A stretch of DNA of 35,007 bases, from assembly GCA_947311565.1 (NCBI GenBank), contig CAMZLH010000010.1, forward strand, positions 1-35,007. The letters run 5' to 3'. The notes below the pieces were generated by a model. The model saw nothing but the letters and a program-made list of their open reading frames with translations, made no database searches and was not told where the DNA came from. Below, piece after piece: positions 9,656-13,684 of the stretch (position 1 is its first letter; every line of letters begins with the position of its first letter). A program made the position numbers and the translations under genes. This DNA is from an uncultured Nitratifractor sp. (GTDB taxonomy: Bacteria; Campylobacterota; Campylobacteria; Campylobacterales; Sulfurovaceae).

Positions 9656-9669
9656 GTCGCCTTCTCCTA
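9639..9669. terminator. Hairpin between convergent nhaD and slt, possible two-way terminator
   Basis: TAGGA (9639-9643) pairs with TCCTA (9665-9669), and AGGCG (9646-9650) pairs with CGCCT (9658-9662), separated by a 2x2 internal loop; the apical loop contains CTTAAG. It is unusually G+C rich for this DNA and lies exactly at the convergent gene ends, overlapping both. There is no long T run, so termination strength is uncertain. Confidence 0.45.
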
Positions 9670-11184
9670 CCTAAATCTATCTGTTAATGTAGGTTTATCT
9701 AACTGCTTAAGAAGTGTAGTTATTTTAATTGGTGAGCCAAGTAATTTCTTATATATTACATAGTTTGCTAAAACTTTTTTGCCATAGTGATTAGCTTGCT
9801 CATTACCTACCATCTCTAAACTTATATATGGCTCATAAGTTCCACTTTTAAATATATTTTTTCTAATTAATTTTCTTGTGTATCCTATTCCAGCATTATA
9901 TGCATATGCAACAAAAAGTGGATGATATAAATATTTATTTAAATAGTTCAAGTGTGTATTGGCAAACCGAAGAGAGACCTCTGGTTTAAACATATCTTCT
10001 AAAGCTATATTTTCACCTCTTACTTTTGCTACATGTTTAACTAAAAAAGGCATAAATTGCATCATACCAACAGCAAATGATGTTGATACAGATGCTGGTA
10101 TAAATCTACTCTCTTGCCTTGCAATTGCATAAATTAGCGCTTGTCTATTTACTGGATATCTACTTAGTATCTCTCTATAAGGTGTAGGAAAGTACTGCTT
10201 AGTATCTCTACTAGCTTTACTTAATATATAACTGTAGTGTCCAATCGATTTAGTAGAGTTATATTTAGTAGCTAAAGAGAATAGATTATATTTACTAGAG
10301 AATATTTTTTTCTTTAATCTAGCCCACTCAATTGGATTACTAATATCAATTGCAGATTTATAACTTTTTTTAACATTCAGTTGTGACGGAAATGGATATG
10401 GTTTATTTAGCAAATCTAAAGCAATAAATTTATATATATTAAAATCGTAACTATAAGCTAATTTATTTAGTAGATTTATATCTTTAATACTCATATATTG
10501 CCAAAAAATTGCTCTATCTGCATAAAATCTATCTTTTGCATTAAATCTTGCTCTATAAAAAAACTTAGATGCTAATTCTAAATTGCCAAGTCTAAGATTT
10601 TTAAAACCAAGTAAAATTAAATTCTTGTAACTAATTTTACTATTATTTATAGGTGAAGTATTTAATATAATAGACTTTGTTCTATTTAAATGCTCTCTAT
10701 TTGCCCTAAATATTACCTGATTTATCAATTTATTTTTTTGTAATTTATTGTAAATCTCTTTAGTTAAATCTCTATCTATAATAACTCTACTAGATAGACC
10801 ACCTAATGAGTATACATTTAGTTTGTCATCTATATTTAAGTTAATCCAATTATTAAAAAAATCACCACTTTTTTGTAATTTAGAGATAATTTTTTTATAC
10901 TTACCTAATCTATTTTTTGATATATTTTGCCTTGCTACTATTTTATGTAGTCTTAATCCACTCTTTTTTTTATATGCTGCTTGTAGTTTACTATTTATAT
11001 GAAAAATAAGTTTAGCAACTTCTATAGTATCTTTTTTAGTAGTTGCAGGTTCTTTTAGAAACTTCCATATGTAAAAGTCTCTCTCCACAGATTTTGGCAT
11101 ATCTTTTAACTCATTTAGGGTTAAACTATATGAGAGTGAAGATAATAGAGATATAGATAATGTAATATTTTTTAATATATTCAA
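9667..11184 (-). CDS. slt: Soluble lytic murein transglycosylase
   Basis: Periplasmic enzyme that cleaves peptidoglycan glycan strands with formation of 1,6-anhydro-muramic ends. The C-terminal catalytic domain shows the family 1 motifs: AIARQESRF with catalytic Glu358, then SFAVGMMQFMP, and AYNAGIGYTRK. The N-terminal 330 residues are helical and divergent, matching the superhelical U-domain of Slt70. A signal peptide covers about residues 1-20. The start is a TTG with AAGGA six bases upstream. Total length 505, shorter than E. coli Slt70 (about 645) but normal for Campylobacterota. It follows yggT after 87 bases, a conserved neighbourhood. Confidence 0.92.
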   Translation of the reverse strand: MNILKNITLSISLLSSLSYSLTLNELKDMPKSVERDFYIWKFLKEPATTKKDTIEVAKLIFHINSKLQAAYKKKSGLRLHKIVARQNISKNRLGKYKKIISKLQKSGDFFNNWINLNIDDKLNVYSLGGLSSRVIIDRDLTKEIYNKLQKNKLINQVIFRANREHLNRTKSIILNTSPINNSKISYKNLILLGFKNLRLGNLELASKFFYRARFNAKDRFYADRAIFWQYMSIKDINLLNKLAYSYDFNIYKFIALDLLNKPYPFPSQLNVKKSYKSAIDISNPIEWARLKKKIFSSKYNLFSLATKYNSTKSIGHYSYILSKASRDTKQYFPTPYREILSRYPVNRQALIYAIARQESRFIPASVSTSFAVGMMQFMPFLVKHVAKVRGENIALEDMFKPEVSLRFANTHLNYLNKYLYHPLFVAYAYNAGIGYTRKLIRKNIFKSGTYEPYISLEMVGNEQANHYGKKVLANYVIYKKLLGSPIKITTLLKQLDKPTLTDRFR

Positions 11185-11271: not shown

Positions 11272-11544
11272 TTATATATGTAGTCCCCAGATTACTTTTG
11301 TTAAAATATTTAATAAAAAGATTATTAAAATAGGTGATAGGTCTACTCCTTGAATAACAATAAAAGGTAATTTAGATCTTATAAAACGAAATAGCGGTTC
11401 TGTTAAATTACGAATAATTTGAACTATTTGGTTTCTTGGATCTGGATTAACAAAGCTTAAAAGTGCTGCAACTATTATTATCCAGATATATAAATTTATA
11501 AATAGTAGTATTAAATCTAAAAAACTATTAACTATTAACGACAT
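11272..11544 (-). CDS. YggT family membrane protein
   Basis: A 90-residue inner-membrane protein with two hydrophobic segments and the YggT-type core NPDPRNQIVQIIRNLTEPL, ending in a second hydrophobic stretch after VDLSPILIIF. Family members are linked to osmotic or cell-division functions, but the molecular role is unsettled. The ATG is preceded by a near-perfect SD (GGAGG, seven bases away) located inside the end of the upstream GluRS-like gene, which it overlaps by ten bases. The arrangement gltX / yggT / slt is conserved in Campylobacter as I recall it. Confidence 0.88.
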   Translation of the reverse strand: MSLIVNSFLDLILLFINLYIWIIIVAALLSFVNPDPRNQIVQIIRNLTEPLFRFIRSKLPFIVIQGVDLSPILIIFLLNILTKVIWGLHI

Positions 11545-12689
11545 TTTATAACCTCCAATATATATGATTTAATTAATTTGTATATTTTATCTAAGTTTAC
11601 ACTATCATGTAAACCAGTTAAAAGATATCTTAATGCTGCATCTAGTTTCTTCTCTTCTATATCTACTCTATCTTTAATATACTCTCTAAACTCACTATAC
11701 TCAGCTATAATAGGCGCTTTTTTTATAATATTAACTAAATTATCAAGCTCTCTATTGCACTCTTTAGGTGAAAAGGTGGCTTTTAATTTCACTGCTAACT
11801 CATTTATGGTTGAAGCCTCATCTAGATACAGTTTTAAAAGATCACCTATATCTTGATCTGCAAAGCCAAATACCATAGAGAGCCTTTTACTATCTATCTC
11901 TCTTAAATGCTTTCTGTTTAGATTTTTTAAACTCTCTAAATCAAAAATAGACTCTTTAGCTGCTATATCTAAGATATTATCTTTTTTGATAGCTTCTGGT
12001 AGATAGAATATATCACTATCTTTGCTAGATAAAATATAATTAATTATAGCATCTGGTAAAAACCCTTGTGCTAATAACCACTTTATAGTAAAGGTTTTAT
12101 CTATCTTTATATCTGGTATAAAGATATAATTAATACTATTTTTATAATCTAAAAGTTTATGAATATATTTCTGATTATCAATATCTAAACTATCTTTATT
12201 GCTTATTATAATCTTAGTAACTGCCATACTCATATCATCAATTGCAGCACTAAATGTATCTGTAGCATCTCCATCTAATTTTATAATTTTAAAGCAACTA
12301 TACTCTTGGTTGCTAATTTTTATTGCAAATTTTCTATTAGTTAGTTTATAATTTTCTATATCTTTAGAAGAGAGTTCTTTGCATCCACAACACCCATTAG
12401 TATCACAAAAACATGGATATGCTTTTTTATTTTTTACTAACTTATATGCAAACTCTTGATATATTTTTAATTTTTCACTTTTATGTATTACTATATCTTC
12501 ATTTATTGCAAATTTTTTTAAAATCTCTTTTGTATCACCTATTATCTCATCTATATTATCTATTTTGGTGCTATCATTTACTCTAATTATAAATCCACTA
12601 TTACTCTCTTTAGAGGTTATATAATTTAAAAGTGCCAATCTTAGGCTATTTATGCAAAGTCCATCTGTAGGGGCTTCAAATCTAAACAT
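11535..12689 (-). CDS. Degenerate glutamyl-tRNA synthetase homologue lacking HIGH and KMSKS motifs
   Basis: Recognisable along its length as a glutamyl-tRNA synthetase but apparently without catalytic ability. The HIGH segment reads CINS (residues 12-15, context PTDGLCINSLR), one residue shorter than the family. The region that normally holds KMSKR reads IPDIKIDKTFTIKWLL, so the loop is lost. The RGEDH-like active-site stretch reads SNKDSL (163-168). The zinc-knuckle area is compressed and cysteine rich (CFCDTNGCCGC, 93-103). The C-terminal anticodon-binding part is kept, including WLLAQGFLPDAIINYIL and ALRYLLTGLHDSVNL. It has 384 residues against about 430 normally. The frame is intact, and it is in the place where relatives have gltX. 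A second, active GluRS must exist elsewhere. It may bind tRNA, regulate, or be decaying. Confidence 0.85.
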   Translation of the reverse strand: MFRFEAPTDGLCINSLRLALLNYITSKESNSGFIIRVNDSTKIDNIDEIIGDTKEILKKFAINEDIVIHKSEKLKIYQEFAYKLVKNKKAYPCFCDTNGCCGCKELSSKDIENYKLTNRKFAIKISNQEYSCFKIIKLDGDATDTFSAAIDDMSMAVTKIIISNKDSLDIDNQKYIHKLLDYKNSINYIFIPDIKIDKTFTIKWLLAQGFLPDAIINYILSSKDSDIFYLPEAIKKDNILDIAAKESIFDLESLKNLNRKHLREIDSKRLSMVFGFADQDIGDLLKLYLDEASTINELAVKLKATFSPKECNRELDNLVNIIKKAPIIAEYSEFREYIKDRVDIEEKKLDAALRYLLTGLHDSVNLDKIYKLIKSYILEVIKCR

Positions 12690-12725: not shown

Positions 12726-12791
12726 CAATAATATTAGTTAATAGAAATTGAAGTTTAATAAAAGAGAAGATATTAGTAGAGTATAAGATAA

Positions 12792-12968
12792 TTAATCTTT
12801 ATTACTCTTACCACCTGTTACAGTATTTACTATTGCACCACCTGCTGAGCCAGCTATATCGATAGTTGTAGTAGCAATTTTACCAGCAACTGCAATTGGC
12901 GCAGTTACTATTTGAGTACAACCATTAATAAGAGATGAAATAGTTAAAATAAGTATAATATATTTCAT
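12792..12968 (-). CDS. Small lipoprotein, 58 residues
   Basis: A short gene directly after ppa (two bases after its stop). It encodes MKYIILILTISSLINGC followed by a glycine, alanine and threonine-rich tail containing TAPIAVAGKIATTTIDIAGS. Residues 1-16 form a lipoprotein signal with lipobox L-I-N-G-C, so Cys17 would be lipidated and the mature peptide is only about 42 residues. Small lipoproteins of this TQxVTAPIxVAG pattern occur in Campylobacterota; no function is known to me. The rest of the peptide is mildly hydrophobic and repetitive (IAVAGK, IDIAGS), which could suit membrane-surface association. No clear SD is seen, so translation probably depends on coupling to ppa. Confidence 0.75.
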   Translation of the reverse strand: MKYIILILTISSLINGCTQIVTAPIAVAGKIATTTIDIAGSAGGAIVNTVTGGKSNKD

Positions 12969-12970
12969 TA

Positions 12971-13489
12971 CTATTTATAGTTGGCAATTGCTTCCTCTAA
13001 TATCTCAGCAGCCTCTTTTTTCCCTTTAAAACCAGTTACTTTTACCCACTTGTTAGGTTCTAGCATTTTGTAAGTCTCAAAGAAGTTTTTAATTCTATTT
13101 AGTGTATGTTCTGGTAGGTCACTGATATCTTGAATATCATTAAATGTTGGGTCTATCTTATGGTATGGTACTGCAAGAAGTTTCTCATCTATACCACTCT
13201 CATCTTCCATTAGTAGTACACCAATTAATCTACACTTAATAAAGCTTCCAGGAATTAGTGGGTACTCTCCAAGAACTAAAATATCTGCAGGATCACCATC
13301 ATCAGATAGTGTGTTTGCTACAAAACCGTAATTTGCAGGATAGAACATTGCAGAAAACATTACTCTATCTACCTCTATTGCACCACTATCTTTATCTAGT
13401 TCATATTTAATATTAGATCCATATGGTACTTCTATAATTGCTTTTACCTCGTCTGGGCACTTTCCGTGGCCTATTTTACTTATATCCAT
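12971..13489 (-). CDS. ppa: Inorganic pyrophosphatase (family I)
   Basis: Hydrolyses pyrophosphate to phosphate in the cytoplasm and pulls biosynthetic reactions forward. Family I motifs are present: EVPYGSNIKYELDK, FYPANYGF, and the metal-binding DDGDPADILV. The frame extends to an ATG at 13501, but the internal ATG at 13489 is better: it has GGAG six bases upstream, while the outer ATG has no SD and would place the SD inside the coding region. The resulting 172 residues match Campylobacter Ppa. The small lipoprotein gene follows after two bases. Confidence 0.96.
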   Translation of the reverse strand: MDISKIGHGKCPDEVKAIIEVPYGSNIKYELDKDSGAIEVDRVMFSAMFYPANYGFVANTLSDDGDPADILVLGEYPLIPGSFIKCRLIGVLLMEDESGIDEKLLAVPYHKIDPTFNDIQDISDLPEHTLNRIKNFFETYKMLEPNKWVKVTGFKGKKEAAEILEEAIANYK

Positions 13490-13684
13490 TACACTCTCCA
13501 TAATTTTTTTGAAATAGTAGCATAACTTTTATAATATATGAACAAACTAATAGTAGTTAGTGAGGCAATATTATAAAGATCTTATACTTTATTAGTTAAT
13601 TTGAATAAAATAGAAATTTATGCCACGATTTAATCACAATTTATAGCTATACTTGCTCTATAAATAAAAGATAGGAGTTCCCAA

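Follow-up and report, generated by a model that had tools for sequence, protein, structure and literature searches.

Is a synthetase gene that has lost its own catalytic motifs on its way out of the genome, or is it kept for another job? The question is raised by gltX2 in the window, by which we mean the whole 35,007-nt stretch of an uncultured Nitratifractor sp. contig (CAMZLH010000010.1) analyzed here. An earlier note, made from the letters alone, had described an open 384-codon frame with glutamyl-tRNA synthetase (GluRS) similarity from end to end and both class I motifs lost, and had set two readings side by side: retention for a non-catalytic job or an early-stage decaying copy.

A GluRS2 gene without its catalytic motifs

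The frame proved uninterrupted throughout its length (Table 1). Residues 7-98 of its product match the Pfam tRNA-synt_1c domain (PF00749, E 5.8e-15), and the PDB sequence matches are glutamyl-tRNA synthetases without exception. Alignment to GltX1 and to the intact GltX2 of the same genus (L014), as the earlier note had proposed, bears out the motif lesions that it had listed. Where L014 reads APSPTGDLHIGN, VRGEDHLS and GKKMSKRD, the window protein has E-APTDGLCINS, IISNKDSL and a deletion of the loop, so that the motifs of a catalytic GluRS are missing, with CINS at HIGH and no KMSKS-type loop. Further residues of the ATP/Glu site are also absent.

Kinship and location both identify the gene as a GltX2 ortholog: the protein is 45% identical to intact L014 vs 25% to GltX1, and its ppa/yggT/slt surroundings are common to relatives. 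Judged by its sequence, the window gene is the GltX2 of its lineage turned putative pseudo-synthetase, without class I signature motifs.

Table 1. Features of the gltX2 locus in the window (positions of the whole stretch; residues of the GltX2 protein).
Feature	Position	Strand	Basis and remarks
Eroded gltX2 (pseudo-GluRS2)	11535..12689	-	384 codons; ORF, PF00749, orthologs, GluRS fold
HIGH motif relic	12645..12656	-	residues 12-15, CINS for HIGN; alignment to intact L014 and GltX1
Zinc knuckle CFCDTNGCCGC	12381..12413	-	residues 93-103; shorter CP insert, Cys ligands retained
RGEDHL relic	12186..12203	-	residues 163-168, SNKDSL; alignment to L014 and GltX1
KMSKR-loop deletion site	12093..12113	-	about residues 193-199; alignment to L014 and GltX1
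C-terminal anticodon-binding region	11538..11918	-	approximately residue 258 onward; the most conserved part
yggT	11272..11544	-	overlaps gltX2 3′ end by 10 nt; PF02325, E 3e-16
slt (lytic transglycosylase)	9667..11184	-	PF01464; conserved neighbour, same order in relatives
ppa (inorganic pyrophosphatase)	12971..13501	-	PF00719; upstream neighbour, same order in relatives

The position beside yggT and slt is as the earlier note had it. The order ppa, small lipoprotein, gltX2, yggT, slt is found in the window and in the genus orthologs, intact L014 likewise adjoins yggT and slt, and this locus is the ancestral gltX2 location. The small predicted lipoprotein frame between ppa and gltX2 (about 12790-12960, minus strand; CTQIVTAPI type) is conserved there, also in L006, L007, L009 and L012. 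Complete gltX2 loss, considered for several genomes, was rejected, the gene being found beside yggT/slt in G025, G044, G051 and G167; in G008 the gltX2 locus is broken, with the ppa and slt matches at the ends of contigs.

Predicted fold and zinc knuckle

An AlphaFold2 model computed with 33 relatives alongside the window protein is confident (mean pLDDT 89.6, pTM 0.85), giving the structure prediction that had been suggested. It aligns to the non-discriminating GluRS of T. maritima (3afh) with Z 29.7 and rmsd 2.9 over 381 of 384 residues, so the claimed GluRS similarity does run from end to end (residues 1-384), the anticodon-binding part included. In the same model-based comparison 4a91 and 1nzj align to residues 1-252 only, and the anticodon-binding region of the window protein sets it apart from YadB/Glu-Q-RS. 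The motif loss taken with the confident model indicates that the frame would encode a complete GluRS fold, C-terminal anticodon-binding domain included, without the signature catalytic motifs; the fold of the eroded protein is thus predicted to be kept.

The zinc region, which had been described as compressed, is indeed shortened in its CP segment (48 residues vs 84 in intact orthologs), but it keeps its Cys ligands: the zinc cysteines of intact GltX2 have their aligned counterparts in C93, C95 and C103, and all three are present in 93 of 100 eroded orthologs. Position 117 (L014 numbering), always Tyr in intact copies, has changed to Cys in 36 of 100 eroded orthologs, adjoining the three retained zinc cysteines as if completing the zinc site.

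GltX2 state and GlnRS presence

The window genome (1.69 Mb, 99.99% complete) holds three genes of the GluRS/GlnRS synthetase family. Besides the eroded GltX2, the search for other gltX copies called for in the earlier note returned an intact GltX1 (L002) and a GlnRS (L001) of 750 residues with a C-terminal YqeY-type region. GatB was also found there, and no AsnRS match reached the cut-off, so Asn-tRNA formation is the probable reason for keeping GatCAB. Within the window's genus the motifs are missing in 10 of the 11 orthologs of genomes carrying gltX2 (in two of these 10 the N terminus is cut by contig ends). The sole intact one, L014 in genome G001, has HIGN and KMSKR, and GlnRS matches in G001 do not rise above the YqeY level.

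This pattern extends to the family, the Sulfurovum/Nitratifractor group, from which 141 GltX2 genes in 175 genomes were taken among the matches listed (the other 34 genomes have matches outside those listed, or gaps). Genes intact at HIGH and KMSK and eroded genes number 29 and 5 without GlnRS, against 10 and 94 with GlnRS (Fisher p 2e-16, ignoring kinship); in good assemblies (≥90% complete, ≤5% contaminated) the counts are 20 and 0 against 8 and 56 (p 3e-13, again ignoring kinship). All five eroded copies without GlnRS are in incomplete or contaminated assemblies, and ten GlnRS-bearing family genomes still have an intact GltX2. On a GltX2 tree built with the motif columns left out, the gene must have switched between intact and eroded at least 16 times, and both states occur within each of six genera: GltX2 erosion arose many times. 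Corrected for kinship, independent pairs stand at about 5:0 for the GlnRS association, with few supported pairs and a median p of 0.06.

Order-wide, 144 of 397 sampled genomes have a GlnRS match. Outside the family, in GlnRS-bearing genomes of six other families, 77 of 80 GltX2 are eroded at HIGH and/or KMSK, and GlnRS-lacking controls, a biased set from the top of the score list, are intact in 20 of 20. GltX2 intactness tracks GlnRS absence elsewhere in the genome, and this main correlate was missing from the earlier note. G371 offers a mirror case: its GltX2 has HIGN, RGEDH and KMSKR, and its glnS match (G371:C171:7988-9205; L359) carries 15 in-frame stops (4 TAG and 11 TAA), which reads as a reverse replacement with GlnRS decaying and GluRS2 staying. 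Several well-assembled genomes of families f13 and f16 and of genus g46 in f12 had neither a strong GltX2 nor a strong GlnRS match among the few candidates scored; a non-discriminating GluRS1 may serve them instead.

Many neighbours in the family derive from MAGs, and one could ask whether the lesions stem from sequencing or assembly errors, or whether another gene was taken for gltX2. The same erosion recurs in many genomes, the single-contig G035, G063, G065 and G097 included, with open frames at conserved loci, and such recurrence refutes an artefact for practical purposes.

The ancestral GluRS2 loads Glu onto tRNA-Gln and GatCAB then amidates it, as is known for Helicobacter. In the window genome GlnRS would charge tRNA-Gln directly, which would make GluRS2 catalysis dispensable and possibly harmful; takeover by GlnRS is quite probably the cause of the erosion. 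The ATP/Glu site would then erode, usually with KMSKR going ahead of HIGH; the folded body, the zinc knuckle and the anticodon-binding domain would remain under purifying selection.

Co-occurrence of GluRS2 and GlnRS in epsilonproteobacteria, with H-phi-G-N as the GluRS2 motif, is described in the passages available to us of an earlier survey, which proposes that GlnRS there may be non-functional (PMC3927822). Our data, with GluRS2 eroded alongside GlnRS and intact without GlnRS or with a broken one (G371), point the opposite way from that proposal as worded in those passages. On GlnRS in Sulfurimonas/Arcobacter the same source contradicts itself in the passages concerned (sections 13 and 17), S. 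denitrificans and A. butzleri being listed both ways. Its passages report no dead GluRS2, and we found no description of a dead bacterial GluRS2 in the open-licence literature.

Selection on the eroded genes

Each of the 102 eroded family genes is one open frame, free of stops. Among eroded-eroded pairs with dS <1 the median dN/dS (NG86) is 0.22, similar in the N and C domains, vs 0.05 for intact-intact pairs, so that intact GluRS2 is constrained about four times more strongly. For 15 closely related eroded pairs, dN/dS is 0.10-0.28 with bootstrap upper bounds ≤0.42, equal in both domains, the dead catalytic one included; most of these pairs share the KMSK-loop lesion, which places their erosion in the common ancestor. 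Positions invariant in intact and mostly lost in eroded GltX2 are largely active-site residues, and many core positions stay near invariant. HIGH is kept alone in 18 genes and KMSK alone in 3; to judge from these sequences, the KMSK loop would usually have been lost first.

The early-stage decaying copy of the earlier note does not hold up, the lesions being common to several species and the gene still constrained. According to that note, an intact version of the locus in close relatives, together with neutral dN/dS or stop codons, would have indicated simple decay; the intact relative exists (L014 of G001), whereas dN/dS is far from neutral and stops were not found in the eroded genes. The alternative that it favoured, retention for a non-catalytic job, gains from the open frames, the low dN/dS and the recurrence across families. 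Motif loss combined with constraint and open frames is the profile of a pseudo-synthetase and not of a pseudogene, and the eroded GltX2 is very probably a non-catalytic protein kept by selection.

Another reading is a slower form of decay, in which a redundant GluRS2 drifts toward loss and the constraint is indirect, through toxic misfolding or polar effects on yggT. The graded intermediates with only one motif left, a constraint below that of intact genes, a HIGH site occupied by some 60 different tetrapeptides and copies as short as about 300 residues (the shortest, in family f19) would all suit such a drift. We nevertheless think it unlikely: the constraint persists after the lesion and equally in both domains, not one of the eroded genes has acquired a stop, seeming losses in four well-assembled genomes turned out to be genes present, and the zinc site is gaining a fourth Cys. 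The coupling to yggT, which had been offered as a sign of retention, is real as a 10-nt overlap but cannot explain constraint at the amino-acid level, and was rejected as the sole cause of retention.

Could the protein still act as a synthetase or transferase, its active site having changed? Its Rossmann halves are retained in sequence and predicted fold, and dN/dS in that part is as low as elsewhere. Against this, neither signature motif survives, and the RGEDH stretch and the residues of the YNF pocket are gone as well; the replacements in the eroded active site vary by species, which leaves no sign of a new conserved one, and we regard continued catalysis as very unlikely.

Possible roles of the retained protein

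Gene pairing bears on what the retained protein might do. glnS adjoins eroded gltX2 in three families. In f15, 15 of 23 genomes carry the pair as divergent neighbours (97-214 bp apart in 12 of the 15), and 25 fetched loci of the window's family have glnS beside gltX2; in the window genome itself they are on different contigs. In f19 (L271, L302, L319, L323 and others) glnS is followed by eroded gltX2 on the same strand in 19 of 23 genomes, with an operon-like spacing of 4-13 nt between matches. The pairing may reflect a common job, or merely the site at which glnS arrived.

Eroded GltX2 has lost conserved Lys/Arg residues from its acceptor-binding and KMSK regions, and more mildly from the anticodon domain (0.73 kept), and these charge data would speak partly against strong tRNA binding. 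Mean net charge is -16.8 in eroded vs -6.7 in intact copies; the window protein is exceptional among the eroded ones in being near neutral (-1).

The acidity of the eroded copies and the loss of tRNA-facing basic residues would fit a role away from tRNA-Gln, for example as a GatCAB/AspRS scaffold in Asn-tRNA formation or as a partner of ppa, yggT and slt, as would the apparent retention of GatCAB for Asn in the window genome and the staying of gltX2 in the ppa/yggT/slt locus across the window's genus. That locus is ancestral, however, and houses the intact L014 too, and in another family the dead gene lies beside glnS; a role of this kind seems improbable.

Our favoured guess is that the GluRS2 relic would hold or present tRNA-Gln or bind GlnRS. 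Taken as a whole, a course in which GlnRS took over, catalysis was lost and a folded non-catalytic protein was kept, perhaps as a tRNA-Gln/GlnRS accessory, appears the probable one, the accessory role in tRNA-Gln/GlnRS metabolism being by itself a plausible suggestion that could well fail. More tentatively still, these proteins might form an order-wide set of Campylobacterota pseudo-synthetases, born repeatedly as GlnRS replaced GluRS2/GatCAB and now dedicated GlnRS/tRNA-Gln partners, with the gene directly following glnS in one family or more.

Parallel and repeated loss of catalysis with the protein kept amounts to a natural replicate experiment on the passage from enzyme to pseudo-enzyme. 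A glutamate-tRNA ligase annotation on eroded gltX2 would mislead metabolic models.

Comparison with known systems

The closest known system is the tRNA-Gln-specific GluRS2 of Helicobacter and other Campylobacterota, which the window protein resembles in sequence, locus and fold and from which it differs in having no HIGH, no KMSKR, few of the ATP/Glu-site residues and a shorter CP insert. YadB/Glu-Q-RS is likewise GluRS-derived with a changed role; it is active and has no anticodon-binding domain, and eroded GltX2 is, by its motifs, apparently the reverse. SLIMP, a SerRS-like protein of insect mitochondria with a known role (as cited in a passage of PMC9437257), is also a synthetase paralog without aminoacylation, which on the GltX2 side is suggested by motif loss; SLIMP, however, is of class II with a single origin by duplication, whereas GltX2 is of class I and would have lost its activity in place after GlnRS appeared. 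DALRD3, the vertebrate ArgRS-like protein that presents tRNA-Arg to a methyltransferase (PMC7237682), is the model for the role favoured here, being synthetase-derived, without the catalytic motif and with an anticodon-binding domain. For DALRD3 a partner is known and tRNA binding has been shown, while the window protein is known from sequence and model; unlike DALRD3, eroded GltX2 keeps the catalytic fold, and its origin is bacterial and repeated.
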